A stretch of DNA of 64,000 nt from Gammaproteobacteria bacterium (lineage in GTDB: Bacteria > Pseudomonadota > Gammaproteobacteria > JAJPIJ01). The position numbers were made by a program, and so were the translations under genes. Shown here piece after piece: positions 23,435 to 43,291 of the stretch (position 1 is the stretch's first letter; each line of letters begins with the position of its first letter). Location: contig JAJVIQ010000014.1 in the NCBI GenBank assembly GCA_022071965.1, positions 1 to 64,000 on the forward strand, written 5' to 3'. The notes beneath the pieces were generated by a model. It had not been told where the DNA came from, did not search any database, and saw only the letters and a program-made list of their open reading frames with translations.

Positions 23435-25666
23435 TTACCAGGACGCGCTGGCGCGCTGCCGGTCGCAGGATTTGACACGGATCAGATGGGGCATGTCCTT
23501 CAGCTTGTCGGCGGGTACGCAGTCCGATAGGCCGGCCCTGCGCGCACCGTCGACAAACAGCTCGGCCTCCCTTTCCGCATAGCCGCCCGCCTCACTGAGG
23601 TATCGTTCCGCGGTCCAGCCAGGGTCCAGCGCCATCACTTTCGCGGCAGCTGCCGCCGCATCGGCCGCGCGATCCAGATACGCATAAGCCATGGCCAGGA
23701 AGGCGTGGTCGAGGGCGAGAGGCTCTTTAACCAGCAAACCGTATTTCACTGATTTCTCGAATTGCCCGCCGAAGAAGAACGCGAGACGGAGCCCTTGATT
23801 GTACCAGTCGGGATAGTGGGGGTTGAGCATCAGCGCCCGCTCCGCCAGGCTCACGGCCCTTCCCGATTCACCGAGCGCCGGGATAGTCCAGGCGATGATG
23901 AGGAGCACGTCTGCGTCAGAGGGTGCAAGAGTTTCAGCTCTGGCAATCTCGGCGGCAGCTTGATCTAGTTTTCCGTGGTATGCGTAGGTTATGCCGAGAG
24001 CCAGGTGCGTTTTGCCGTCGTCGGGATCGAGTGCCACCGCCTTCTCGGCCGCCTCCATCTGCTTTGACCGCGCCTCCTCGACGGAGGGTGCCAAGCCGAG
24101 GTCAATCAAATAGAAGTAGACATCAACCAGCCCGACGTAAGCTCGCGCCAATTGCGGATCGAGCTCAAGCGCTTTGTGGAACAGGCCCTCCGCTTCGATC
24201 AGACTTTCCTTCGTCACCTTGTGTTTTGCCTCCATGGCCAACAAGTACGTGTCGAAGGCGCTTAGGTTCGCGGGTGGCTTACGCCGGATGAGGGTTCGCT
24301 CGGCCTCGGCGACCGCCCCCTCGTAGCCGCCTAGCGTGGCGGCGATCCGCTGCGTGACATCGTTCTGCACCGCGAATAAGTCCTCAACAGGCCTGTCGTA
24401 ACGCTCAGACCATATGTTGCTGCCGGAGGCGGCTTCAATGAGCTGGACCGTAACGCGAATTTTCTCGCCCATCGACTGGATGCTGCCCTCGAGAACGTAT
24501 TTCACACCGAGGTCGCGACCGATCTGGCGAACGTCAACCGGCCTGCCCTTGTAGACCTCGGTGGAATTGCGAGCGATGACGATAAGGTCCTTGGATTGGG
24601 CGAGATCGGTAATGATGTCCTCGGTCATGCCATCCGCGAACCGCTCCCATTTTGGATCGTCGCCAATATTGTCGAACGGCAGGACGGCAATGGATGGCTC
24701 ATCGGGCAGGGGTGGACCGGTGCTTGGGTCCTTCATATCCCAGAAACGTGTCGCGACGATAAGCAGCGCAGCGGCAGCGAACGTCAGAACCCCGGCGACA
24801 ATCGTTGTCTGTCCTCGTCGGGCTGGACGCGACATCGCGGGCACGGAGGGTGTATCCAAGGATGGCATTTGCGCGGGCGAAACAGGCTGAACCTGAGAGC
24901 CGACGGTCGCAGGGACGACTTGTGTCTGCGACACCACCGGTCCGTCGAGCAGAGCGCGATGAAGCTCCTCGGTCTCAGCGCCCGGCTCGGCGTTCAACTC
25001 GCGCTTCAGCGCCGCCCGGCACTCCTGGTACTGGCGCAGCGCCGCCTCCCGCTGCCCCTGCTCCGCGTACAGCCGCATCAGCGCCCGGTGCGCCTGCTCG
25101 TTGGCCGGTTCGAGCTGGAGCAGCCGCTGCGCCGTGCCGGCGATCCGATCGGCCGCCTTGCCCTGCTCCTGATGACTCAGCAGTCTTCCCAGGGCCCGCA
25201 GCGCCGCCCCGTGCAGCCTCTGCCGCTCCACCAGCAGCCACTCCTCGTAGCCCTCGTCGCGCACGCTCAGGTCCTCGAGCAGTTCGCCGCGATACAGCGC
25301 GCAGCCATGCGCGAGATCCTCGGCGTCGCCGGAGGCGACCAGACGCTCGAACGCCGCCACGTCCGTGTCCACCGCCTCGGCATTCAGTCCGACCCGATCG
25401 CCCTCGGTGAGGAAGGGCGGCGGCCCGCTCCCGTTCAGCTCGTTGCGCACCACCGTCAGCGTCTGCCGCAGGCTGTGCCGCGCCTGCTCCTCGCTGCGAT
25501 CGCTCCACAACAGCGCCGCCAGCCTGTCGCGCGGGAAGCTCCTGCCGGGGGAAAGGGCGAGATAGGTCAGCAGCAGCTCGCCCTTGCGGGTCTTCAGATC
25601 CACAGCCGCCCCTGACTCGAGGCAGGCCTCAAATCGCCCGAGCAGCCTTAGGTCCACCCACGCCAT
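23435..25666 (-). CDS. Membrane-anchored BTAD/SARP-type regulator with TPR sensor domain, paralog 1
   Basis: The 743-aa protein has a winged-helix plus bacterial transcriptional activation domain (about residues 1-240: LRLLGRFEACL, LLWSDRSEEQARHSLRQTL, LYAEQGQREAALRQYQECR). A single transmembrane helix follows (about 287-307), then a TolB/FlgO-like domain (PSIAVLPFDNIGDDP, VKYVLEGSIQ) and TPR repeats to the end. DNA binding is thus cytoplasmic and sensing extracytoplasmic, as in CadC/ToxR one-component regulators. The ATG at 25666 has AAGGAGG upstream. It is divergent from a small secreted protein gene whose promoter carries SARP-like repeats, so that gene is the likely target. Confidence 0.85.
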   Translation of the reverse strand: MAWVDLRLLGRFEACLESGAAVDLKTRKGELLLTYLALSPGRSFPRDRLAALLWSDRSEEQARHSLRQTLTVVRNELNGSGPPPFLTEGDRVGLNAEAVDTDVAAFERLVASGDAEDLAHGCALYRGELLEDLSVRDEGYEEWLLVERQRLHGAALRALGRLLSHQEQGKAADRIAGTAQRLLQLEPANEQAHRALMRLYAEQGQREAALRQYQECRAALKRELNAEPGAETEELHRALLDGPVVSQTQVVPATVGSQVQPVSPAQMPSLDTPSVPAMSRPARRGQTTIVAGVLTFAAAALLIVATRFWDMKDPSTGPPLPDEPSIAVLPFDNIGDDPKWERFADGMTEDIITDLAQSKDLIVIARNSTEVYKGRPVDVRQIGRDLGVKYVLEGSIQSMGEKIRVTVQLIEAASGSNIWSERYDRPVEDLFAVQNDVTQRIAATLGGYEGAVAEAERTLIRRKPPANLSAFDTYLLAMEAKHKVTKESLIEAEGLFHKALELDPQLARAYVGLVDVYFYLIDLGLAPSVEEARSKQMEAAEKAVALDPDDGKTHLALGITYAYHGKLDQAAAEIARAETLAPSDADVLLIIAWTIPALGESGRAVSLAERALMLNPHYPDWYNQGLRLAFFFGGQFEKSVKYGLLVKEPLALDHAFLAMAYAYLDRAADAAAAAAKVMALDPGWTAERYLSEAGGYAEREAELFVDGARRAGLSDCVPADKLKDMPHLIRVKSCDRQRASASW

Positions 25667-25721: not shown

Positions 25722-25749
25722 TTTATATCGCATTTTTGACGCCGTGCAA
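25722..25749 (-). promoter_or_regulatory. Probable promoter of regulator paralog 1
   Basis: On the minus strand, TTGCAC and TATAAA are 16 bp apart in an A/T-rich patch about 55-80 bp before the regulator ATG. The same pair with the same spacing is kept in the second unit. Confidence 0.5.
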
Positions 25750-25756
25750 TGTCTAT

Positions 25757-25810
25757 CTGACGCGCCCCTGACAGCTCCCTGACAGCACCTTGATGGCCCC
25801 CGTCTAGAAC
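25757..25810 (+). promoter_or_regulatory. SARP-type operator/promoter: four heptamers at 11-bp steps
   Basis: Heptamers CTGACGC, CTGACAG, CTGACAG and TTGATGG start at 25757, 25768, 25779 and 25790, exactly 11 bp apart. The last is followed after 8 bp by a -10-like TAGAAC (25805-25810). A fifth heptamer, TTGACGC, lies 21 bp upstream of the first. SARP activators are known to bind direct heptamer repeats one helical turn apart, with the last repeat 8 bp from the -10 and replacing the -35. The divergent BTAD regulator is the obvious binder. Confidence 0.8.
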
Positions 25811-25934: not shown

Positions 25935-26255
25935 ATGAACACGATTCGAACCCTCGCGCACCGGCATCCGGTTACCGGATCCTCCACTTCCCCGATGTCG
26001 GGACGCATCGGCAGCACGCTGCACAAGACCATCGGGGCAGCCTCGGCGGCCGTCGTCATCGGGATCGCCCTGGCGAGCGCCGCGTATGCCGATCCGGCCA
26101 CCAGGACGCCCGCGGCGACAATCGAGCTGGCGGGGTTTGAACTGCCCCCGCGCGGCTATCAGTGCGTTCCGACATTCCACGGCAAGTACACGGGCTGGCG
26201 TTGCGAGTACCGATCTGCCGAGGGAACGGGGAAGGCGATCGCGAAGGCGCCGTAG
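25935..26255 (+). CDS. Small secreted protein of unknown function, paralog 1 (106 aa)
   Basis: ATG 25935 has GGAGG six bases upstream. The protein has an unusually long polar N-region (about 35 residues, MNTIRTLAHRHPVTG at the start), a hydrophobic segment ending ASAAYA, and a mature part of about 50 residues with the block RGYQCVPTFHGKYTGWRCEY. Two cysteines in the mature part could form a disulfide. I do not recognise a family. Its promoter is shared with a divergent membrane-bound BTAD regulator, so it is probably produced on an envelope signal. It might feed back on the sensor or act outside the cell; neither can be read from sequence. Confidence 0.75.
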   Translation: MNTIRTLAHRHPVTGSSTSPMSGRIGSTLHKTIGAASAAVVIGIALASAAYADPATRTPAATIELAGFELPPRGYQCVPTFHGKYTGWRCEYRSAEGTGKAIAKAP

Positions 26256-26624: not shown

Positions 26625-28823
26625 TTACCAAGACGCGCTGGCGCGTTGCTGGTCGCAGGATTTGACGTGGATCAGACTGGGCACGTCCTTCAGCTTGTCG
26701 CCGGGTACACAGTCCGGCAGTCCGGCCTTGCGCGCACCGTTGACAAACAATTCGGCCTCCTTTTCCGCGTAGCCGCCCGCCTCGCTGAGATATCGTTCCG
26801 CGATCCACTCAGGATCCAGTTTCTTGACGTTGGCGGCAGCCGCCTCCGCATCATCCATGCGACCGAGATATGCATTGGCCATGGCGAGAAAGGCGTAATC
26901 GAGACCGAGGGGATCCTTCACGAGCAATCGATATTTCACCGATTTCTCGTACTGCTCGCCGAAGAAGTACACCAGGCTGAGCCCCTGGTTGTACCAGTCG
27001 GGATAATGAGGGTTCAGCATCAGCGCCCGTTCCGCGAGGCCCACAGCCCGCTCCGATTGTCCGAAGGCGGGAATAGTCCAGGCGATCACGAGAAGGAGGT
27101 CTGCATCGGAGGGCGCCAGGGCCTCTGCCCTGTCGAACTCGGCAAGTGCCTTATCCGCCCTGCCCTGATAGGCGTACGCGCCGCCGAGAGCCAGGTGCGT
27201 CTTGCCGTCGTCGGGATCGAGTGCCACCGCCTTCTCGGCCGCCTCCATCATCTCTGAAAGCGCCTCGTCGACAGAAGGCGCCAGGCCGAGGTCGATCAAA
27301 TACTGTTGGACAGTGGCCAGCCCGTAGTAAGCCCGCGCCAATTGCGCATCGAGTTCGATGGCTTTGCGGAACAGGCCTTCCGCTTCGTTCAAGGATTCCT
27401 TCGTGACCTTGTGTTTGGCCTCCATGCCGAGCAGGTAGGTGTCGAAAGCGGTCAGGCTCGCGGGCGGCTTACGCCTGATGAGGCTTCGCTCGGCCTCCGC
27501 GATCGCCCCCTCTGAGCCGGCGATCGTGGCGGCGATCCTCTGCGTGACGTCGTTCTGCACCGCGAACAGGTCGCCGACCGGCCGATCGTAACGCTCAGAC
27601 CACACATGGCTGCCGGAGGCGGCCTCGATGAGCTGAGCGGTCACACGGATGCGCTCGCCCATCGACTGGATGGTGCCCTCGAGAACGTATTTCACACCGA
27701 GGTCGCGGCCTATTTGGCGGATGTCGATCGGCTTGCCCTTGTAGACCTCGGTGGAATTCCTGGCAATGACGATGAGGTCCCTGGAGTGGGAAAGATCGGT
27801 GATGACGTCCTCGGTGATCCCGTCCGCGAACCGGTCCCATTGAGGATCTCCCCCAATGCTTTCGAAGGGCAGGACGGCGATGGACGACTTGTCGGGCGGT
27901 TTAGATCTGGAGCTCCACGGCTTCGATCCCCAGAAACCTGCCGCGATGACGGCCAGCACCAGGGCCGCGATCCCTGCCTGCCAACGCACCGACGCAAACG
28001 ACAGGTGTGAGGGGGATGATGGTGCCTGCGTGGGCGGTAGCAGCTGTCTTGCACTGACGGACTGGGCGTCTGCAACGGGCACCGCTGCCGCCGTATCCAA
28101 ATTCAACAGTGTCCGATAGAGCTGCTCCGTCTCCTTCCCGGGCTCGGCGTTCAATTCGCGCTTCAGCGCCGCCCGGCACTCCTGGTACTGCCGCAGCGCC
28201 GCCTCCCGCTGCCCCTGCTCCGCGTACAGCCGCATCAGCGCCCGGTGCGCCTGCTCGTTGGCCGGTTCGAGCTGGAGCAGCCGCTGCGCCGTGCCGGCGA
28301 TCCGATCGGCCGCCTTGCCCTGCTCCTGATGACTCAGCAGTCTTCCCAGGGCCCGCAGCGCCGCCCCGTGCAGCCTCTGCCGCTCCACCAGCAGCCACTC
28401 CTCGTAGCCCTCGTCGCGCACGCTCAGGTCCTCGAGCAGTTCGCCGCGATACAGCGCGCAGCCATGCGCGAGATCCTCGGCGTCGCCGGAGGCGACCAGA
28501 CGCTCGAACGCCGCCACGTCCGTGTCCACCGCCTCGGCATTCAGTCCGACCCGATCGCCCTCGGTGAGGAAGGGCGGCGGCCCGCTCCCGTTCAGCTCGT
28601 TGCGCACCACCGTCAGCGTCTGCCGCAGGCTGTGCCGCGCCTGCTCCTCGCTGCGATCGCTCCACAACAGCGCCGCCAGCCTGTCGCGCGGGAAGCTCCT
28701 GCCGGGGGAAAGGGCGAGATAGGTCAGCAGCAGCTCGCCCTTGCGGGTCTTCAGATCCACAGCCGCCCCTGACTCGAGGCAGGCCTCAAATCGCCCGAGC
28801 AGCCTTAGGTCCACCCACGCCAT
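26625..28823 (-). CDS. Membrane-anchored BTAD/SARP-type regulator with TPR sensor domain, paralog 2
   Basis: The 732-aa protein has the same layout as its neighbour at 23435: BTAD domain (residues 1 to about 240), one transmembrane helix (region WQAGIAALVLAVIAAGFWG), TolB/FlgO-like domain (SSIAVLPFESIGGDP) and C-terminal TPRs. Residues 1-229 are the same except for synonymous changes, whereas the linker and membrane segment are very different and the sensor part differs at roughly one residue in five. Like its partner it lies divergent from a 106-aa secreted protein gene. The identical DNA-binding half predicts that it binds the operators of both units. Confidence 0.85.
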   Translation of the reverse strand: MAWVDLRLLGRFEACLESGAAVDLKTRKGELLLTYLALSPGRSFPRDRLAALLWSDRSEEQARHSLRQTLTVVRNELNGSGPPPFLTEGDRVGLNAEAVDTDVAAFERLVASGDAEDLAHGCALYRGELLEDLSVRDEGYEEWLLVERQRLHGAALRALGRLLSHQEQGKAADRIAGTAQRLLQLEPANEQAHRALMRLYAEQGQREAALRQYQECRAALKRELNAEPGKETEQLYRTLLNLDTAAAVPVADAQSVSARQLLPPTQAPSSPSHLSFASVRWQAGIAALVLAVIAAGFWGSKPWSSRSKPPDKSSIAVLPFESIGGDPQWDRFADGITEDVITDLSHSRDLIVIARNSTEVYKGKPIDIRQIGRDLGVKYVLEGTIQSMGERIRVTAQLIEAASGSHVWSERYDRPVGDLFAVQNDVTQRIAATIAGSEGAIAEAERSLIRRKPPASLTAFDTYLLGMEAKHKVTKESLNEAEGLFRKAIELDAQLARAYYGLATVQQYLIDLGLAPSVDEALSEMMEAAEKAVALDPDDGKTHLALGGAYAYQGRADKALAEFDRAEALAPSDADLLLVIAWTIPAFGQSERAVGLAERALMLNPHYPDWYNQGLSLVYFFGEQYEKSVKYRLLVKDPLGLDYAFLAMANAYLGRMDDAEAAAANVKKLDPEWIAERYLSEAGGYAEKEAELFVNGARKAGLPDCVPGDKLKDVPSLIHVKSCDQQRASASW

Positions 28824-28878: not shown

Positions 28879-28906
28879 TTTATATCGCATTTCTGACGCC
28901 GTGCAA
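28879..28906 (-). promoter_or_regulatory. Probable promoter of regulator paralog 2
   Basis: The TTGCAC/TATAAA pair with a 16-bp spacer on the minus strand, as in unit 1. Confidence 0.5.
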
Positions 28907-28913
28907 TGTCGAA

Positions 28914-28967
28914 CTGACGCCTCCCTGACAGGGCCGTGACAGCCTCTTGATGGCCACCGTCTAGAAC
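28914..28967 (+). promoter_or_regulatory. SARP-type operator/promoter of unit 2
   Basis: Heptamers CTGACGC, CTGACAG, GTGACAG and TTGATGG start at 28914, 28925, 28936 and 28947, again exactly 11 bp apart. The last is 8 bp from TAGAAC at 28962. An extra CTGACGC lies 21 bp upstream, as in unit 1. The spacers between heptamers have changed while the heptamers are kept, which supports function. Confidence 0.8.
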
Positions 28968-29091: not shown

Positions 29092-29412
29092 ATGAACACG
29101 ATTCGATCACTCGAGCACCGGCATCCGGTCACCGGATCACCCACTTCCCCGATGTCGGGAAGCACTGGCTGCACACTGCACAAGGCCGTCGGGGCAGCCT
29201 CGACGGCCGTCGTCATCGGGATCGCCCTCGCGAGCACGGCATATGCCGATCCGGCCACCAGGGCGCCCGCGGCGACGGTCGAGCTGGCGGGCTACGAACT
29301 GCCCCCGCGCGGCTATCAGTGCGTCCCGGTATTCCACGGCAAATACACGGGCTGGCGCTGCGAGCAGGAATCCGCCGCGATAGCGAACGAAGCCGTCGCC
29401 AGGACTCCGTAG
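29092..29412 (+). CDS. Small secreted protein of unknown function, paralog 2 (106 aa)
   Basis: This protein is the same length as paralog 1 and starts with MNTIRSLEHRHPVTG, followed by a hydrophobic segment ending ASTAYA and the block RGYQCVPVFHGKYTGWRCEQ. The N-region of this copy has an extra cysteine (TGCTLHK). Differences from paralog 1 are spread through the protein, while the block around the two mature cysteines is nearly fixed. GGAGG lies seven bases before the ATG. A further secreted protein gene follows after 73 bp and may share the transcript. Confidence 0.75.
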   Translation: MNTIRSLEHRHPVTGSPTSPMSGSTGCTLHKAVGAASTAVVIGIALASTAYADPATRAPAATVELAGYELPPRGYQCVPVFHGKYTGWRCEQESAAIANEAVARTP

Positions 29413-30437: not shown

Positions 30438-31697
30438 CTATCGCGGGAATCGAGCGAGCGGGCAGGCGGGCGGGCTGGTAGCCTTTTTTCTCGCGATAAT
30501 TTGCTCAGTACATTTGTGGAGGTAGTGGACAATTGTTTCGATCCGGATCTTCACCGAACCGGCCGGCTTGGTGGAGTCCAGGTCCTGGAACGAGAAGAAC
30601 AAGGTTCCCGATCGTTCAACGATTTGCTGCAGCGGTGAGTAGGTCGGCTGGTCCATGCCGCATTCATAGCTCGAGAGGCGAACCGCGCAGGCGATCCAGG
30701 GCATTCTTGCCGCGAACTTCGCACCCCAGATGATTTCATTCGTATTGGCACTATAGGAAGAAGGCCACACGTCGGCAATGTCGAATGGCGATCGGATACG
30801 GCCTGCCTCGATGTCCGGGCCGAACATCCACAGCAGCAAGTCGGGGTCAATCGGCAGGTATTGCGACCACAGCAGCGGATAACCGTGGATCTGCAGATCC
30901 GCGTCGATCTCGTGCCCGATGCCGGGGTCCATATGGTACGGACGCCCTAGAACCAAGAGGCAGGGTCTGTTCTCGCGCGCACACAGTTCCAGGATCTCCC
31001 GCCCTTTCCTGCGCAGGCTACGGTCGAAGGTTTCGAGGACCTTGAAGCCCTCGTCAACTGCGAGTTTCGTCTCTTCGCGATTGAGGTTGGGAATGGCGTG
31101 CCGCAAACACTCAAAAAGCTGCCTTGCGACAAGCGGCTGGTCGCCAAATGACACCAGCGGCGCCACGTAACGGATAGAGCGCTCGGCGAAGACATTGTTT
31201 TCCTTGAGAAAACCCGCCTTGATATTCTCCGAGGCCGCCATAACGCGCGGACAGGCAAGAGATACCTTCACATGCCCATTGAGGAAGGATGGCAATGATT
31301 CGATCATCGGCGAAAACAGAATATCGATCTTCCTGTGCTTGTCGCGGCCAATGAGTTCCCCGAGGTGACCAGACATGCATTTGACCGGATAACAACAGTC
31401 GACACTACCCCGTCCCCTTCCGTATTCACGCGTTTGCTCTTCCGATGTCTCGGAGGAAAACTCGATATGGCGCGGGTCGATTCCAAGTGCACCGAAGAAA
31501 CCCATCCAGAATTGGTGGGTCGACCATATGTTGAGAACCCGCGGGATCCCGATTCGCAGGTCGGCACGCGACTTGGCAATCGCCGGAACCGCCTCCCCCG
31601 CGAACCTCCCTGGAGCGGCTGTGCCAGTGTCAGGCTGCGCTATGAGTCCGCCTGAACGCACCGTGCCGAACCATGTCAGCAATGTTCGGGTAGACAT
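30438..31697 (-). CDS. DUF2229-type component of a CoA-enzyme activase/reductase system
   Basis: The 419-aa protein matches the DUF2229 segment of large activase-related proteins: RIGIPRVLNIWSTHQFWMGFF near residue 45, conserved cysteines in CCYPVKCMSGH, and LGRPYHMDPGIGHEID followed by LLWSQYLPID. The ATG at 31697 has GGAGGAG ten bases upstream and overlaps the end of the BadF gene by 68 bp. A later GTG at 31661 is possible. In many bacteria this domain is fused behind two BadF domains in one giant protein; here the parts are separate, overlapping genes. The role is probably electron transfer or scaffold in an Fe-S reductase. Confidence 0.75.
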   Translation of the reverse strand: MSTRTLLTWFGTVRSGGLIAQPDTGTAAPGRFAGEAVPAIAKSRADLRIGIPRVLNIWSTHQFWMGFFGALGIDPRHIEFSSETSEEQTREYGRGRGSVDCCYPVKCMSGHLGELIGRDKHRKIDILFSPMIESLPSFLNGHVKVSLACPRVMAASENIKAGFLKENNVFAERSIRYVAPLVSFGDQPLVARQLFECLRHAIPNLNREETKLAVDEGFKVLETFDRSLRRKGREILELCARENRPCLLVLGRPYHMDPGIGHEIDADLQIHGYPLLWSQYLPIDPDLLLWMFGPDIEAGRIRSPFDIADVWPSSYSANTNEIIWGAKFAARMPWIACAVRLSSYECGMDQPTYSPLQQIVERSGTLFFSFQDLDSTKPAGSVKIRIETIVHYLHKCTEQIIARKKATSPPACPLARFPR

Positions 31698-33804
31698 TCT
31701 TCAGCTCCTCCAGCCGGGCCTTTACCCCTCGCATTTCGTTGGCATCCTCGAGCAAGCCTTTGGGACACGAGTTGCCGCTGATAACCCGCTCCCAACCCTC
31801 CGGGAGAGCAACCTTGCTCCACTCGCGCCCCCTGCCTCCGCGCAGGCGTACGTCTATGAATGTCCGCTTGCAGTTCACCGGACACCATTTACAGGTCGTG
31901 TGCTCGTTTGTCGTGCTCGTGTATACCAACGATTCAATAGCATCGTAGCCGCGGAAGCGACTCGGCCGGCCCTGCGCTGTCCATTCGCCGGCGCAGAGCG
32001 CCGCACCGATTGCGCCTGCCTCCCCGGGGTACGGATGCACCACTATCTCCGCATCCGGAACCTTGTCGCGGATGAAATCCACCTGCGCCTTTACGACAGC
32101 GAGATTGCGGTGTGTCCCCCCCTGCAGCACGAACTTGTGTCCTGCCGCCGCCAGATTCTGCAGCTGCCCGGCGTACACCCACACGTTCAGCGGCAGCACC
32201 GAGGCCAGCCCGGCCATGATCTCCTCGGCCGACCACCCTTTGCGCTGCTGACTGACGATGTCCGACTGCAAGAACACGCCGCAACCCATGGCAAGGGAGG
32301 GTATGGATTGGGCCCGGAATGCATGGTCGGCGTACTCTTCCAGGGAAATGCCGTAGCGTTCCGCCACGCCCTGCAGAAATGCGCCATTGCCCGAAGAACA
32401 TTGGGAATTGAGCCGAAAATCCGATACCGTCCCCTGCCGCAGAATCATGATCTTCACATCACAGCCGCCCACGTCGCAGATGACGTCGGCATCGGGAAAA
32501 AAATGCAGCGCTCCGGTGGCATGCGCCACCGTCTCGACGACCGCGACATCGGCTCCGACAATGTCCGTCAACAGGTCTTTGCCGTATCCCGTGATTGCCA
32601 CTGCGGCTATCGACTCGAAGCCCGCCTCGCGGATTTTTCGTACGATCGCTTTCAAGTCCTCGATCGGATTTCCATTGGAAGGCACATAGCAGCTCGACAG
32701 CAGTTCCTTGCCCGTTGAAAGAACGACCGCCTTTGCCGTAGTGCTGCCGACGTCACAGCCCACCAGAACCGGGGTCGGCTCGTGGGAGGCGGACGCCCTG
32801 TCATCCGAAACTTTCTCTGCGCGCGGCCCGCCGTACTTGCTGAGGAACTCCTCAAATTCCTTCTCGTCCCGCAGAAGTCCTCTCGTGCCGGTCTTCGCTT
32901 TGACCTCCCACTGACCCTCCGCTATCCACCAACTGAGTTTGTCGCGCCCAGCGTAGACCCCTAGGGCCTGCTCCTCGTCTTCACCAATCGCAATGCAACC
33001 AAGACACCCATAGTAAAGTGCATCTGTCGGCACCTCTATCAGTGACAGCGGCGTGCCACTGTCCGGCAGCGCGACGTGCCTTTCGGCCCAGAGCTTGCGA
33101 AGATGGTGCTGCCATGCCTGCTGCAGGCCCTTGAAGAACAAGTTCGGTCCGCCGAGAAGCAGCGCCTTGGGAAGGGGCGTGTTGCCCTTGGTGAGGGTTG
33201 CCAGGTTCTGGTAGACGACGGCCTCAAACAGGCTTGCCATGATCTCCTCTACGGGAACGCCGGACTTGACCAGCGAATTCGCGTCGGCTTCGGCAAAAAT
33301 GCCGCATTTGGCGCTGACTTTGTGCAGCGTGACCCCGATGTATTCCATCTGCGCCAGGCGTTCGCCGGGAACTTGGAGCTTGCGCGCCGTTTTTTCAATA
33401 AACGTACCGGTGCCGCCACTGCACGCCGACTGCATGTAGACCTGCTTCGACTTGCCGTTCCCGGTCGTCGAGAAAAACAGCGTCTTCATGTCCTCGCCAC
33501 CGATCTCGGAGACGAAGTTGACGTCAGGATGCAGTTTTTCGACTGCCGCGGAAACAGCGACCACCTCCTGGATGAATCTGCCGCCAAGCAGCGGCGCGAG
33601 AACTCCGCCACCCGAGCCAGTGACATAGACGCGATCGCGCCCAGGGGTTAGCCCGCAATCCGACTCCAGGCACTGAAGGAACGAAAGCACCGTTTCCGCC
33701 TGCTTCGTATTGTGACGCTGGTAGTCCTTCCAGCGCGTAGCGCCGTCGGCAGCCACCGCGGCCTTGACGGTCGTGGAGCCGACATCCAGGCCGACTGTCA
33801 ACAT
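31630..33804 (-). CDS. Double BadF/BcrA-type ATPase (CoA-dehydratase activase family)
   Basis: The 724-aa protein contains two ASKHA-type activase domains. The first starts GLDVGSTTVKAAV and has its cluster cysteines in SACSGGTGTF and KCGIFAEAD. The second starts GCDVGSTTAKAVV near residue 345 and has QCSSGNGAF and MGCGVFLQSD. The C-terminus has a further Cys cluster, CKWCPVNC plus NSCPKG. Activases use ATP to push an electron from a [4Fe-4S] cluster to a low-potential partner such as 2-hydroxyacyl-CoA dehydratase. The start codon overlaps the stop of the HgdB-like gene by 7 bp. Confidence 0.85.
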   Translation of the reverse strand: MLTVGLDVGSTTVKAAVAADGATRWKDYQRHNTKQAETVLSFLQCLESDCGLTPGRDRVYVTGSGGGVLAPLLGGRFIQEVVAVSAAVEKLHPDVNFVSEIGGEDMKTLFFSTTGNGKSKQVYMQSACSGGTGTFIEKTARKLQVPGERLAQMEYIGVTLHKVSAKCGIFAEADANSLVKSGVPVEEIMASLFEAVVYQNLATLTKGNTPLPKALLLGGPNLFFKGLQQAWQHHLRKLWAERHVALPDSGTPLSLIEVPTDALYYGCLGCIAIGEDEEQALGVYAGRDKLSWWIAEGQWEVKAKTGTRGLLRDEKEFEEFLSKYGGPRAEKVSDDRASASHEPTPVLVGCDVGSTTAKAVVLSTGKELLSSCYVPSNGNPIEDLKAIVRKIREAGFESIAAVAITGYGKDLLTDIVGADVAVVETVAHATGALHFFPDADVICDVGGCDVKIMILRQGTVSDFRLNSQCSSGNGAFLQGVAERYGISLEEYADHAFRAQSIPSLAMGCGVFLQSDIVSQQRKGWSAEEIMAGLASVLPLNVWVYAGQLQNLAAAGHKFVLQGGTHRNLAVVKAQVDFIRDKVPDAEIVVHPYPGEAGAIGAALCAGEWTAQGRPSRFRGYDAIESLVYTSTTNEHTTCKWCPVNCKRTFIDVRLRGGRGREWSKVALPEGWERVISGNSCPKGLLEDANEMRGVKARLEELKNVYPNIADMVRHGAFRRTHSAA

Positions 33805-35456
33805 GATTGTCTGTTGGCGGCAATGTACAGCACGAGGTTCGCTGCACTGCCCGCAACGACGCCGTAGTGCGGAATACGATACGCGGCTCGTCTCAACTGC
33901 GGACTCTGCTCGAGCGCAGACCGAACCTGGGCATCTGAAAGCCCGGTACTCTCCAGTGCGTCCTCATACTCCTGTTGCGCGCGCTTCCTGGCTTCGGCGA
34001 GGACCATTTGACAGCGCGAGAGCGCATGCACTTCCGCGTCGCCCGTGATCTCGATTGGCGCGTATAGCAGGTCCGGATACCGGCCACGCACGGCTGCCAT
34101 GGCGCCGATGCTCATGGTGTTTGGCATACAGGAATACGGGGACAGTTCGCACGTCATATGCGCCTTCTTGCGATGGTAGGCCCATAATGCCTTGCCAATA
34201 AGCATATCCCCTTCGCCGCCGGTCAGCCGCGAGTTGTAATAAGGGGCCGCGAGGCGTGCCAGATCGTACTGGTCCGGCAATGCGCGAGGTACATCGCCGA
34301 GCGCCTTGCGCATCCTGCCGTATGTCCATCGCAACGCGGATTGAATGACGCGCACGGCACCAAGCTTGAGGCGCGCGTGCCGTTGGATCCCAATGTGATC
34401 CTCGAGCTTCTGTCTGGTCAGTCGCAAGAGGTAGTCCAGCCAGAGCGTAACTGCCGCGGGATAGACCTCCGCACCCTCGGTCTCCAGCCAGCGGTGAATG
34501 TCGTGATTCGGCACGCCTTCGACCGTCTGCAGATAGAACTCGCCGGTAATTTTTACTATTGGCCTTACACGCAGCCGATCGACCTCAATGGAATGGAAGC
34601 GCTCCCGCACCTCACGCAACGCATTTGCGAAATACCGGGTACCGAAGTGCCACAACACGGCGTCCCACTTCTTTCCCCGATACGGTCGCCTACGAAATAC
34701 CTCATAGAGGTAATCCACGCTCTCGCGCACTACGCGCTCGGTCTCGCCGGCTTTCGTCTCGTACGGGCGCACCTGATACTCCAGGTCCTGAATCACGTCG
34801 GTGACGATGAGGGCCCACACGGCACCCGCAATGAACGGCACGCTCAGGTCGAGCCCGCCGTCGGCCGAACCCTGATTGAGATTGCGCTGATCCAGGAGGA
34901 AAATGCGGAAAGCCTCCATTCCGATATTACGCAGCGCGAGTTCATAGCTTTGGTGGTATTGGCCAAAGCGGCATGAACCGCATGCACCTGCCGTGAGATA
35001 CACGTACTCGTTCGCGACATTGTCGGCGCCGATTCGATCTGCCTCGGCACGCAGGAAGTTGGCGAGGTTGCCGGTAGTAAAGCTGGTGGGGCAACACTGC
35101 CCGATGTCGGCAAGTTCCCGTCCGACCTGCAGGTCCCGGGTGGAGGGAGCCGGCAGGATCCGGGCCCGGTAACCCATGTTTTCCATGACGCCCTGGATGA
35201 CACGCTCGGCTCGCCAGTGCAGACCCCCGAACAGAATTGTCACCCGGTCCCGATCCGCACGAGTAAAGGGTCTAGGCTTGTAGGCCTGGTAGTGATGACC
35301 GTCGACACCGAAGGTGCCCTTGGCAGCTGGTCTCAAACCGCCATTCGGTGCCGGTATCCGGCGACTTGGTCGCGCTGACAGAGACGCCGAGGTAACAAAA
35401 GGCTCCTCGCGCAGCATGATCCGGCGTGACAAGAGATCGGAGGTCGCCATCGTCAT
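33798..35456 (-). CDS. HgdB-like Fe-S component of activase/reductase system
   Basis: The 552-aa protein resembles the HgdB/2-hydroxyacyl-CoA dehydratase D-like part of activase-related proteins. The cluster cysteines appear in IGQCCPTSFTTGNL and GACGSCRFGQYHQSYE, and a late pair in MTCELSPYSCMPNT. It would receive the electron from the BadF ATPase encoded next. The substrate is unknown; the same fold includes dehydratases, benzoyl-CoA reductases and double-cubane-cluster reductases. ATG 35456 is preceded by AAAGGGGA. The frame also offers an ATG at 35582, which would add 42 residues. It is the first gene of the three-gene operon. Confidence 0.75.
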   Translation of the reverse strand: MTMATSDLLSRRIMLREEPFVTSASLSARPSRRIPAPNGGLRPAAKGTFGVDGHHYQAYKPRPFTRADRDRVTILFGGLHWRAERVIQGVMENMGYRARILPAPSTRDLQVGRELADIGQCCPTSFTTGNLANFLRAEADRIGADNVANEYVYLTAGACGSCRFGQYHQSYELALRNIGMEAFRIFLLDQRNLNQGSADGGLDLSVPFIAGAVWALIVTDVIQDLEYQVRPYETKAGETERVVRESVDYLYEVFRRRPYRGKKWDAVLWHFGTRYFANALREVRERFHSIEVDRLRVRPIVKITGEFYLQTVEGVPNHDIHRWLETEGAEVYPAAVTLWLDYLLRLTRQKLEDHIGIQRHARLKLGAVRVIQSALRWTYGRMRKALGDVPRALPDQYDLARLAAPYYNSRLTGGEGDMLIGKALWAYHRKKAHMTCELSPYSCMPNTMSIGAMAAVRGRYPDLLYAPIEITGDAEVHALSRCQMVLAEARKRAQQEYEDALESTGLSDAQVRSALEQSPQLRRAAYRIPHYGVVAGSAANLVLYIAANRQSC

Positions 35457-35724
35457 ACGCTCATCCCCTTTGCCAGTTGATCGCGTCGATACAATCCTTG
35501 TGGTATCGAACCGCTCGCGGCGCCCGAACTCGTCTGCGAGCGCCGTCCTTATGGCATTCAGGCAAGACCTGAGTCGTCGCATCCAAAGTTGTGGCCTCGG
35601 CCGCGAGAATCGCCGTTGTCCTGCAATGCAGTAACATCATCGGCGCTCGGGTCGGCTCGGCTCCGAGTTCCGATAGCATGACCTGCTGTTGTTCTAAGTA
35701 ACGTGCTTCCTCGAGTGGCGGGCA

Positions 35725-38833: not shown

Positions 38834-41800
38834 CTACGGCGAAGGAGAATTGCGAACGAGGGTCTCATAAATCGCCTGGATCTGCGGTGAAAGCGTACCA
38901 TGCCGTAGCGAACTCTCGTTGCGGCAACGTTCATAGACATTGAGGGCATCGTCCGGCCGCCCCAGCTTTCGGTAGGCAAGCATAAGCGCCCGGTATGGGC
39001 CCTCTGCCTCGCGGTCACGCGCGATAGCCCGTTCGTAACAATCAACAACGCTTTCCGAGTGCCCGGCGCGGTCCAAGAACGAGACGATCTCGGTCAGGCA
39101 TTGCAGAAGCCGGCCACGGAAGCTGTCTCGGCACGTAACAACGCATGGAAAGTCAGATTCGTCTTTCAGAAACGGGCCGGTGTAGCAATCGAACAATTCA
39201 TCGGCGAGTCTCTCGACGAATTGCGGCTCTATCGTCTGTAAAGGGCGGCGGACCAGGGCCTCTATCGCGTTCGCTATCTGCTCGAACTGCCAGGTATCGA
39301 CATGGCATTGTCGCTGGTTGAGGCTCACCCTGCCCTCAGCCAGCAGCACCGCATCCTCGGTACCAAGCATCTTGCGCAATCGATGAAGCGTGATCGTGAA
39401 TGACTTGCGGGCGTACTCTTCATCCACGCGCGGCCAGAGTGTCTCGGCGAGCAGGTCGGCACGTACGTTTCTGCCACCCATGGCAATGAGGACCTTGAGC
39501 AACTCCAGAGGGCGACCCTGCGTTTTTGCAGGCGGCGCCTGAATCTCCTCTCCTACCATCAATCGGAAGTCGCCCAGCGTCGCGATCCGGATCTGCCACG
39601 GCCACCCGGCGACCCTGAGTGGCGGTGACTCCGGAAACAGCTTTCGCGTACGTATGAGGAGGCGCGCGTAGTCAGGGTCAATATCTTCTTCCAGCGCCTC
39701 CAGACACAAGCGTGCCATGACTGCGGGCTGCCACCACAGCACAGGCAAGAAACCGTGCTCACGCCCCAATCCGAAGGCATAACGCAGCGAATTGAGGCCG
39801 GACCGTCTGCGTCCCTCCTCGATGGCAACCGCAGCATAGCTGAGCAGAGTCATGAACTCGAAGAGGGGATTGCCCAGATCACGGGTCAGGCTGTGTAGCC
39901 GCCGCCCCTGCGCAGCCCCTTGGCGCCGGTCACCGCATTCGAACAGTACCTGGACCATTGCCGAGCGACACAGAACCTCCAGGAAAGGGATCCCAAGCTC
40001 TATTGCCACCTCCAGTGCCTCTTTCAGCTCGCGGTAGGCCGTGATGAGATCGCGACGAAGTGCGGCAGTCCAGGCGCAGAGGTAGTGATAGAAGCATTGG
40101 TCGATTCGACGACCGCGCGAAACAACATCATGCCATTGTTCGCATAGCTGTGCGGCCCCTGCGAGATCCCCAGCCGCTAACGCGGCGCTCATGCCGCTGG
40201 CGAGGAGTTGAGTCCGCCACGCCTTGATCTCATGCGTTTGGCACTGGCCAAGCCCATCGCGCACGGAGGCGAGACAAGCCTCGTAACGGCCCGAGAGGGC
40301 GTGGTGCATGGCTTCGGCGGCGCGGAACACCACCACCGCAACGGGAGAAAGCCCGGGACGCGCGATCACCTCGCGCAGTGCGTCTATGACATTTCGCGCG
40401 CGGTCAAGCTCCCCCGTCAGCATCAATCCGATGGCCACCATCGGCTCGATCAAACCGCGCTGGCGCGCGGCGTCGCTCGCCCCGCGCGCAAGCTGCGAAG
40501 CGCGTACCAGCCACACATCCAGGTCGGGATTCGAAGGCTGGCGAAGTATCTGCGACATGAACATGCAATAGCATATTCGTGCCTCCTCGGCACTCAAGAC
40601 ATCCGGGCAGGCCTTCAGGAGGCGGTCGAGTTCGGCGATCCATCTATCTAGCGGAGTCAGGTCATCGAGTTCCGCAAGCAACGTGTTCATCACTCCCACG
40701 CAACTCAGGATCGCCCCCTTGGGATCCACCATATTCGCGGCGACAAACGAGGAGTAGGCCTTCTCGAACCAGCGCCGGCCTGCCCGTGGCGCGCTGCGGG
40801 CGCTCGCGGCACCGGACCAGTACTGCAACCACGGATCTCCCGACACCAATTCTGGTGGCAGATCATCCAGCCAGCGACCCAGCACCTCGTCGCGTCCAGA
40901 ATCAAGCATCGATTCGGAATAGTCCCTCACTGCTGACGCCAGGCGGTCCCATGCCGCGATCTCCGCGAACAAGGCGACGGCGTCCTCGATCCGCCCCGCG
41001 GCCAGGAGTACCTCCGCAGCAGTGCGTTGCTCGTCGGCCAGCTCGCGCGCGTTTCGAGTATCCCTGGCTCGCCTCAACAAGAACTCGCGGAATAGTATGT
41101 GCATTTGATATTCGTGCTCACGGCCATTCTGCTTCTCGGTGACGAAATAGTTGTTCAGCGTGAGGTTTGCCAGCAGGCGTGCGGCATCGGCTTGCCCTGA
41201 TACCGCCTCAGCCATCGGGGCAGTCATCCTCGACAAGTGCGCCGCGCGCAGGAGAAACTCCTGGGTAGTCGGTTCGAAACGATCGAAGATCTCACCGGCC
41301 AGATAATCGAATACTGTCTGGGGCACTTGCGCCATACACCCCTCCGGGGGAAGTGCGCCGTGCCTCCGGCTTTCCAGCATCAGCACCAGCCCCGCGGCCC
41401 ACCCGTCGCTATCCGCACAAAGCCGATTGCAGTTGTCCTCGGTGAGCTTGACCCCGCGCAATGCGGCGAGGTCCGCGATCTCGCTGCCTGTGAAGCGCAA
41501 GTCCGACCAGTCCACGATCTCCAATCGGGTCTGCGCCCGATAACGCGCCATCTGCGCCGGCGGCTCGGACCGCGACAGGATCATCGCGCAGACGCCCGGC
41601 GGCATTTCGTCCAGGCCCGCCATGATGGCTTCCTGCGAGTCGGAATGCGGCGGAAGCTCGTGATAGTTGTCGAACACCAGCACAAATGGGCTCTGTACCC
41701 GATGGTAGAGGTTGCGGAAGAACCGCTTGGCGAAGGCCCCGACACTTTGCACATACTCCGGCGTAAACAGGGGGAGCGGCCGGCCACGCAGGTGCCGATG

Positions 41801-42064
41801 CTTCTCCGCTGTTCGTCCCAGGTAGTGAAACAATGTCGCGGCGTCGATATCCGCTTGGTCGAGCTGATACCAGAGGTAATCGATATCGCGATGCTCCAGA
41901 TAGCTCGAAACCAATGTCGTCTTTCCCGCACCAGCCGGCCCGGAGATCCAGACGACGCCGTGAACGGCTGCCTCATCGAGTCTCTCGAACAGCCGCTCGC
42001 GCATGGCTACCCTGGCCAGCTTGGGCCGAGTTATCTTTGCGAGACTTAGGGTCGTGTCCGACAT
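38834..42064 (-). CDS. MalT-like STAND ATPase regulator with C-terminal BTAD/SARP DNA-binding domain
   Basis: The 1076-aa regulator opens with a MalT-type NTPase: Walker A SGPAGAGKTTL at 41-51, then FVLVFDNYHELPP as Walker B. A long helical TPR-like region follows. The C-terminus (about 820-1076) is not a LuxR helix-turn-helix but a winged-helix plus BTAD domain (IRIATLGDFRLMVG, LLAETLWPRVDEEYARKSFTITLHRLRKML). This suggests ATP-dependent, ligand-gated activation and SARP-style DNA binding. Start MSDTTLSLAKITRPKL is the family's usual beginning. It is divergent from the TRAP operon, whose promoter has GTAA repeats at 11-bp steps. Confidence 0.85.
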   Translation of the reverse strand: MSDTTLSLAKITRPKLARVAMRERLFERLDEAAVHGVVWISGPAGAGKTTLVSSYLEHRDIDYLWYQLDQADIDAATLFHYLGRTAEKHRHLRGRPLPLFTPEYVQSVGAFAKRFFRNLYHRVQSPFVLVFDNYHELPPHSDSQEAIMAGLDEMPPGVCAMILSRSEPPAQMARYRAQTRLEIVDWSDLRFTGSEIADLAALRGVKLTEDNCNRLCADSDGWAAGLVLMLESRRHGALPPEGCMAQVPQTVFDYLAGEIFDRFEPTTQEFLLRAAHLSRMTAPMAEAVSGQADAARLLANLTLNNYFVTEKQNGREHEYQMHILFREFLLRRARDTRNARELADEQRTAAEVLLAAGRIEDAVALFAEIAAWDRLASAVRDYSESMLDSGRDEVLGRWLDDLPPELVSGDPWLQYWSGAASARSAPRAGRRWFEKAYSSFVAANMVDPKGAILSCVGVMNTLLAELDDLTPLDRWIAELDRLLKACPDVLSAEEARICYCMFMSQILRQPSNPDLDVWLVRASQLARGASDAARQRGLIEPMVAIGLMLTGELDRARNVIDALREVIARPGLSPVAVVVFRAAEAMHHALSGRYEACLASVRDGLGQCQTHEIKAWRTQLLASGMSAALAAGDLAGAAQLCEQWHDVVSRGRRIDQCFYHYLCAWTAALRRDLITAYRELKEALEVAIELGIPFLEVLCRSAMVQVLFECGDRRQGAAQGRRLHSLTRDLGNPLFEFMTLLSYAAVAIEEGRRRSGLNSLRYAFGLGREHGFLPVLWWQPAVMARLCLEALEEDIDPDYARLLIRTRKLFPESPPLRVAGWPWQIRIATLGDFRLMVGEEIQAPPAKTQGRPLELLKVLIAMGGRNVRADLLAETLWPRVDEEYARKSFTITLHRLRKMLGTEDAVLLAEGRVSLNQRQCHVDTWQFEQIANAIEALVRRPLQTIEPQFVERLADELFDCYTGPFLKDESDFPCVVTCRDSFRGRLLQCLTEIVSFLDRAGHSESVVDCYERAIARDREAEGPYRALMLAYRKLGRPDDALNVYERCRNESSLRHGTLSPQIQAIYETLVRNSPSP

Positions 42065-42235
42065 GACAACTTTTGCCTTACCCTGAAATAAGAATAGACC
42101 ATGCGGCTGCATGCAAAGGGCCAGTGCCGGCGGCACTTTCCCACGTCCCGCGAGTAACGGCATCCATGCCGTGTTCCGTAGCGCGCCGCCCGCTCGGTAT
42201 CGCGTGGCCCGCCTGGTCTGAGCGGCGATGCTGAC

Positions 42236-42289
42236 CGTAACTCCCCTGTAAGCGTTTCGTAACTACCCTTCCCATGCCGCACTTACTAG
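42236..42289 (+). promoter_or_regulatory. SARP-like operator/promoter of the TRAP operon
   Basis: Heptamers CGTAACT, TGTAAGC and CGTAACT start at 42236, 42247 and 42258, exactly 11 bp apart. A -10-like TACTAG lies at 42284-42289. The neighbouring BTAD regulator is the natural binder. The same repeats occur upstream of the activase operon at 35725. Confidence 0.7.
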
Positions 42290-42334
42290 AGTTCCCGATA
42301 CATGCACATTCGAGCGCTCGATATCCGAGCGACC

Positions 42335-43291
42335 ATGCCAGTGAACGTCAAAGGACTCGTTGACCGTCAAAGGGCCCGCCGCAGGCCGGGTATCGCGACA
42401 GCGCTTGCGGTAGCACTACTCCTTGCTGGTAGTGGCTGTTCGGTCCGTAACTTCGTCAGTGCCCGCCTCGCCGACTCGCTGGCGGACAGCGGAGAGGTTT
42501 ACGCCCAAGACGATGACATAGAACTGGTCGGCGCGGCGACCCCGTTCGGGTTGAAGACCATCGAATCGCTGCTCCTCGCGCAGCCCCAACACCGCGGACT
42601 ACTACTTGCCGCCGCCCGGGGTTTTGCGCAGTACGCCTATATCTATGTCGCGACCCCCGCGGATACAGCGGAGGAGCGCGATATCGGGGCAGCCTATGCG
42701 CAACGTGAACGGGCCAGGCGACTCTACCTGCGGGCCCGCAACTATGGGTTGCGTGGGCTTGAAGTCACGCATCCCGGATTGGGACAGATGCTCCGCCAGG
42801 ACCCAACGGGTGCGGTTGCGCGCGTGGATGCCCATGACGTGGATCTCCTGTACTGGTGTGCCGTCTCATGGGCAGCCGCGATCGCTTTGGCGAAAGACGA
42901 CGCGTTCCTGATCGCCGATCTTCCGCAGACGGATGCACTCATAGACCGGGCGCTGGTGCTGGACGAAGCATTCGATGATGGCGCAATCCACGTCTTCCTC
43001 ATTGGTTACGAGATGGCACGCAAGACTCGTGGCGGCGATGCGGCCGCCACGGCCCGCAAACACTTCGAGCGTGCGGTCGAGCTGTCAGATGGTCTGCGTG
43101 CGGCACCGTACGTCGCACTTGCCGAGTCTGTGGCTGTCGCTGAGCAGAAGCGCGAGGAATTCGAAGAGCTGCTCGAGCGCGCTCTTGCCGTCGATCCTGA
43201 CGCGCGTCCGGAGTGGCGGCTTGCCAATCTCGTGATGCAGCAGCGTGCCCGCTGGCTTTTGGCACGGATCGGGGAACGGTTCGGTGGGTGA
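42335..43291 (+). CDS. TatT-like TPR lipoprotein of a TPAT TRAP transporter
   Basis: The product is a lipoprotein (LLLAGSGC lipobox) followed by an all-helical domain with TPR-like repeats, matching the TatT family (TRAP-associated T component). Known TatT proteins form a trimer that binds the TRAP periplasmic binding protein and may pass hydrophobic ligands to it. The gene order T, P, QM here is that of the Treponema pallidum TPAT locus. ATG 42335 is preferred over ATG 42302 because the latter would start almost at the predicted transcription start. The end overlaps the DctP gene. Confidence 0.82.
   Translation: MPVNVKGLVDRQRARRRPGIATALAVALLLAGSGCSVRNFVSARLADSLADSGEVYAQDDDIELVGAATPFGLKTIESLLLAQPQHRGLLLAAARGFAQYAYIYVATPADTAEERDIGAAYAQRERARRLYLRARNYGLRGLEVTHPGLGQMLRQDPTGAVARVDAHDVDLLYWCAVSWAAAIALAKDDAFLIADLPQTDALIDRALVLDEAFDDGAIHVFLIGYEMARKTRGGDAAATARKHFERAVELSDGLRAAPYVALAESVAVAEQKREEFEELLERALAVDPDARPEWRLANLVMQQRARWLLARIGERFGG

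Follow-up and report, generated by a model that had tools for sequence, protein, structure and literature searches.

Direct repeats spaced 11 bp apart lie beside BTAD regulator genes in the window (the whole 64,000-nucleotide stretch of DNA that was analysed), and we consider it likely, from sequence comparison, that these arrays are candidate operators of the adjacent regulators, which would work like the operators of SARPs and probably activate the divergently transcribed gene. The pattern itself is real, is common to a family and matches the SARP rule, in which direct repeats stand 11 or 22 bp apart and the 3' repeat lies 8 bp from the -10 element (PMC10936776). A first reading of this DNA, made from the sequence alone, had quoted that geometry correctly, and its proposal that SARP-type activation extends beyond actinobacteria is supported by the periodicity found in homologues and by a SARP-like profile and predicted fold. 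Binding of the array by the BTAD proteins, with activation of the divergent gene, would be the best explanation of what we describe below. The two duplicated loci contain the following features:

25757-25796, plus strand: operator 1, with heptamers CTGACGC at 25757, CTGACAG at 25768, CTGACAG at 25779 and TTGATGG at 25790
25805-25810, plus strand: proposed -10 element TAGAAC of divergent promoter 1, from the sequence and from distance statistics in homologous arrays
25735-25741, plus strand: a fifth repeat unit standing apart from the array, TTTGACG (minus strand: CGTCAAA), from the sequence
28914-28953, plus strand: operator 2, with heptamers CTGACGC at 28914, CTGACAG at 28925, GTGACAG at 28936 and TTGATGG at 28947, spaced 11 bp
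28962-28967, plus strand: proposed -10 element TAGAAC of divergent promoter 2, from the sequence
23435-25666, minus strand: regulator 1 (743 aa), with a winged helix, BTAD, a hydrophobic segment and TolB_N/TPR
26625-28823, minus strand: regulator 2 (732 aa), a paralogue of regulator 1
25935-26255, plus strand: divergent gene 1, a proposed target encoding a 106-aa protein with a signal-peptide-like N-terminus
29092-29412, plus strand: divergent gene 2, small, a proposed target encoding a 106-aa protein

As the sequence-only reading had described for positions 25757-25810, the four heptamers of operator 1 follow each other at exactly 11, 11 and 11 bp, and the heptamer at 25790 is separated from TAGAAC by 8 bp (25797-25804). 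On the minus strand the heptamers read CCATCAA, CTGTCAG, CTGTCAG and GCGTCAG. The 8-bp gap is exact in both window copies; for the second unit (28914-28967) the reading was right about the two distances and about the differing spacers, but the heptamers were not kept entirely, one base having changed (C to G, relative to the heptamer at 25779). Heptamers, 4-bp spacers, an 11-bp period and 8 bp to the -10 element also make up the operators of SARPs (PMC10936776, PMC7040171, PMC5930380). The fifth unit at 25735 lies 21 bp off operator 1, on the side away from the -10 element, with an AT-rich TATAAA adjoining it on the regulator side; operator 2 likewise has a fifth unit (TCTGACG at 28892) 21 bp further from the -10 element. 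A search around the operator site for an ordinary sigma-70 promoter detected none.

The operator had been said to be kept in two copies. Two sites do exist, but they come from one tandem duplication, partly homogenised: the regulator gene and the small divergent gene form a duplicated unit of 3157 bp that carries both operators, and operators 1 and 2 are therefore not independent witnesses. The part encoding the DNA-binding domain (25001-25600) has 99-100% DNA identity with the matching part of copy 2, against about 80% for the sensor halves of the two paralogues, a contrast that suggests, as the simplest account, that gene conversion has recently acted on the DNA-binding part and that the sensors are diverging. 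In spite of the duplication, the intergenic part has diverged far enough to be informative. Only 1 of 28 heptamer bases differs between the copies, as compared with 6 of the 12 bases in the spacers between heptamers (Fisher p=0.0014) and with 7 of 26 when all non-heptamer positions of 25757-25810 are counted (p=0.022).

Throughout the whole 3.56-Mb genome, three exact TGAC units at 11-bp spacing occur at operators 1 and 2 only. On the opposite strand, three YGTNA units at 11 bp are found at exactly three sites, namely operators 1 and 2 and a third one at 42236, all of them upstream of BTAD regulator genes and within the window, while the reversed pattern, used as a control, gave 0 matches in the genome. 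Because the homologues were already known when the YGTNA pattern was drawn up, its match to the window is in part a matter of choice; this choice does not explain why the only further site that it finds lies at a third BTAD gene. The third array, absent from the sequence-only reading, sits between its regulator and a divergent gene:

42236-42264, plus strand: third array, CGTAACT CCCC TGTAAGC GTTT CGTAACT, from the genome pattern search and from homologues
38834-42163, minus strand: third regulator, a MalT-like ATPase whose C-terminus carries a winged helix and BTAD, from the domain search
42302-43291, plus strand: divergent gene for a TRAP-transporter T-component (TAtT)

This regulator belongs to a different subfamily from regulators 1 and 2. 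Its homologues have TTACR repeats at 11 bp, arranged as pairs in five loci and, like the array in the window, as triples in two others (L162 and L163); strict CGTNA pairs were found in none of the subfamily loci, TTACR being there instead. In the third array and its TTACR homologues the motif runs the opposite way relative to the regulator gene, and no 8-bp -10 geometry was evident at this array or in the subfamily.

In order to evaluate the periodicity outside this genome we turned to distant homologues, since the genus and family genomes searched yielded no close orthologues; the closest named relatives come from gammaproteobacterial MAGs and from Alphaproteobacteria. On the regulator strand upstream of BTAD homologues, 17 of 52 regions had CGTNA pairs at lag 11 and 12 of 52 had them at lag 22, compared with 0-3 at lags 7-10 and 12-20; at lag 11, the opposite strand and the coding controls of this first set both gave 0. 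The CGTNA motif was fixed after this set and before two hold-out sets were scored. A fresh alphaproteobacterial sample had lag-11 pairs in 10 of 22 regions and a second fresh sample in 11 of 18, again with 0 on the opposite strand and 0 in coding sequence in each case. With all loci pooled, the regions upstream of regulators (27.6 strand-kb) contained 50 lag-11 pairs, and the remainder of these loci (681 strand-kb) contained 15. After removal of similar sequences, a strict CGTNA pair was present in 27 of 64 regions, and fewer than half of the homologous regions have one. Several homologues carry at least three repeats in register (for instance L089, L095, L103 and L122), and the upstream repeats of two loci from genomes of the same class (L038 and L054) are very like those of gammaproteobacterial loci L067-L069, which makes a gammaproteobacterial origin of the window the most likely one. 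Direct repeats of seven bases, set 11 or 22 bp apart as in SARP operators, are thus found in the window and in the homologues, and conservation of heptamers and spacing in related loci, the check that the sequence-only reading had set for itself, was obtained in three region sets, two of them hold-outs. The CTGAC type that it had assigned to the heptamers is present in the window, but the family as a whole has the consensus TNACG, read in the direction of the divergent gene, or CGTNA on the strand of the regulator, and not CTGAC specifically.

We then scored the distance from the repeats to -10-like hexamers in 31 homologous arrays, which exclude the window loci, although a few of these loci had been looked at by eye before the test. 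On the divergent-gene side, such a hexamer lies 8 bp past a heptamer in 11 of the 31 arrays; the shuffled null gives 1.7 +/- 1.2, and 0 of 400 shuffles reach 11. The peak has echoes at 20, 32 and 43 bp, which stacking of the repeats at intervals of 11-12 bp would produce. A profile anchored on the outermost strict pair alone had been unclear, since the outermost repeat is often degenerate; the peak became clear once every site in a cluster was scored. The second fresh set comprised 11 arrays and favoured 8 bp only weakly, with 4 of 11 under a lenient threshold, tied with 20 bp, and 1 of 11 under a stricter one. The 8-bp distance is therefore less secure than the periodicity.

These distances bear on whether the BTAD regulators bind the arrays mainly to regulate themselves, by repression or activation, and not to activate the divergent gene. 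We think this unlikely. It would agree with the position of the arrays 30-250 bp upstream of the regulator start, with CGTNA reading towards the regulator on one strand only, and with four alphaproteobacterial loci (L088, L091, L094 and L102) in which a repeat overlaps a TAGNAT-like -10 element that lies near the start codon and faces the regulator gene. A -10 element at 7 bp in the regulator direction was nevertheless rejected: the count observed (13, with a null mean of 7.6) is largely the next repeat scored as a -10, whereas the signal in the divergent direction is sharp at the SARP distance (11 vs 1.7). Autoregulation and divergent activation can, besides, coexist.

The orientation of the arrays relative to AfsR sites is uncertain, as the array motif can be aligned to those sites in either direction. 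The AfsR repeat is CGTT(T/C)ATCGNN (PMC10972967). Matching CGTNA with CGTTCA makes the motif point in the direction opposite to the divergent promoter, which is not the AfsR arrangement. Matching TTNACG with TTCA instead lets the motif and the divergent promoter point the same way, at a distance of exactly 8 bp, and this alignment would be favoured by the -10 statistics. The PapR2 consensus GTCAGSS (PMC7040171) corresponds to GTCAGGG on the minus strand of the array.

The regulators themselves have the domain architecture and fold of SARPs, with an N-terminal OmpR-type winged helix followed by BTAD. In the domain search, BTAD scored well above its cut-off in regulators 1 and 2, and the preceding Trans_reg_C match was weak, below the cut-off. 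An AlphaFold model built on 13 related sequences (mean pLDDT 93.7) predicts that the N-terminus folds like AfsR and EmbR: in the PDB the N-terminal model is closest to AfsR, as solved within transcription initiation complexes (8k60, 8hvr), and to EmbR, with E of about 1e-11 to 1e-9, and both proteins were also retrieved by a profile search. AfsR contacts DNA through W74, Q81, R87 and R94 and reads bases with T88 and R92 (PMC10936776). In the alignment, the four contacts correspond to W54, Q61, R67 and R74 of the regulator, and the base-reading T88 and R92 to Q68 and V72; S65, R67 and Q68 are invariant among the homologues. The altered recognition residue would fit the altered motif. The C-termini of both regulators are TolB_N-like with TPR. 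Regulator 1 contains one strongly hydrophobic segment at about residue 288, and a similar segment was recognised by eye in regulator 2, which suggests that the window regulators may be membrane-anchored one-component regulators. Anchoring would be confined to some members of the family, because most homologues lack the segment.

PhoB, a two-component receiver protein with an OmpR-type winged helix, also binds repeats of this format, and we weighed whether the window arrays are PHO boxes for its phosphorylated form, placed beside BTAD genes as part of the phosphate response. The PHO box consists of two CTGTCAT units with an A/T-rich 4-nt spacer (PMC3131613). Its CTGTCA core is found in both window copies within the same format of 7+4-bp direct repeats (PMC3131613), and the minus strand of the arrays reads exactly CTGTCA-N5-CTGTCA, a sequence that the genome has without mismatch at the two window sites alone. 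The array, however, has four conserved units rather than two, and its spacers are G+C-rich. The homologous arrays read CGTNA and not TGTCA, with the fourth base free and C where the PHO box has T, and arrays track BTAD genes, including the third regulator with its TGTAA/CGTAA units. Moreover, the sites by the Pho-type genes of this genome read CTGTCAC-N4-CTGTAA. Taken together, these points make a PHO-box origin improbable. Cross-binding of PhoB at the window sites is possible; at afsS of Streptomyces, the sites of PhoP and AfsR overlap (PMC10972967). The one-mismatch PHO-like sites CTGTCAC-N4-CTGTAA are located at about 1631 in L159 and about 1881 in L160 (contigs C8 and C11 of the genome, G000), one immediately preceding the gene of a PhoB-like response regulator and the other near a PiT-type phosphate transporter, as judged from translations read by eye.

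That the arrays are functionless repeats, due to chance and seemingly conserved through the recent duplication, is very unlikely in spite of the recent common ancestry of the two copies, given the uniqueness of the arrays in the genome, the heptamers kept while spacers changed, the recurrence in all three region sets from homologues, and the 11-bp arrays that another regulator subfamily has of its own.

Regulation by the adjacent BTAD proteins, the reading that we prefer, places the system beside the SARPs (AfsR/afsS, PapR2, PimR, ActII-ORF4, DnrI), which combine a winged helix with BTAD and whose AfsR/EmbR fold is also predicted here. It differs from them in several respects: the host is a member of the Pseudomonadota, the family motif is CGTNA/TNACG, an invariant Gln takes the place of T88 of AfsR and no Arg that of R92, and the C-terminus is TolB_N/TPR, with a hydrophobic segment in the window copies. 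In the narrow sense, SARPs are actinomycete proteins encoded within biosynthetic gene clusters; the neighbours here are a small secreted-type protein and transport and metabolic genes, and among the targets no antibiotic cluster is evident. HilA/EilA and CadC-type one-component regulators, like the regulators described here, join a winged helix to a TPR/TolB-like C-terminus, and HilA boxes are direct repeats about 11 bp apart. Here, by contrast, BTAD is above its cut-off, and the HilA/EilA family of NCBIfam gave weak matches of 37 and 34 bits in the C-terminal part, against a curated cut-off of 589.

We envisage that regulator protomers would sit side by side on one face of the DNA, one per 11-bp repeat. 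At a promoter that has no good -35, and whose proposed -10 element begins 8 bp after the last heptamer, the bound regulator would recruit RNA polymerase and so switch on the divergent gene, in the way known for the AfsR dimer at afsS; this step is proposed on the strength of the geometry and of the solved structure of the AfsR complex. A promoter architecture familiar from the antibiotic regulators of Streptomyces thus appears, from the comparison of upstream regions, to be in wide use across Alpha- and Gammaproteobacteria. We lean slightly towards a broader proposal, that Pseudomonadota contain a widespread class of one-component regulators, with winged helix-BTAD and diverse sensor C-termini, that activate divergent targets via 11-bp CGTNA arrays through sigma adaptation in the AfsR mode. 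If this were true, many uncharacterised genes could be assigned to regulators by reading intergenic arrays, and such assignments would become testable from sequence alone. The arrays define a consensus operator and a rule for promoters in a regulator group outside actinomycetes, and offer Gram-negative systems for testing the AfsR-type activation mechanism. In the literature that we searched, the coverage of which is incomplete, no described operator for Pseudomonadota BTAD regulators was found.

As for the genes that would be controlled, the small secreted-type 106-aa proteins match no family in Pfam or NCBIfam, and a search of 36 related genomes returned no ortholog outside this genome and weak matches only (best E 8e-4). 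In homologous loci where the divergent gene is recognisable, it is often an enzyme gene: a methyltransferase in four cases (L041, L043, L116 and L121), and elsewhere an alpha/beta hydrolase (L114), a homocysteine S-methyltransferase (L131) or a FAD-binding oxidoreductase (L087). For this reason the system looks like a regulator placed beside its own target, with the array in between. Just past the duplicated unit, at 30438-35582, there are consecutive minus-strand ORFs that by eye resemble a 2-hydroxyacyl-CoA dehydratase activase and related proteins.
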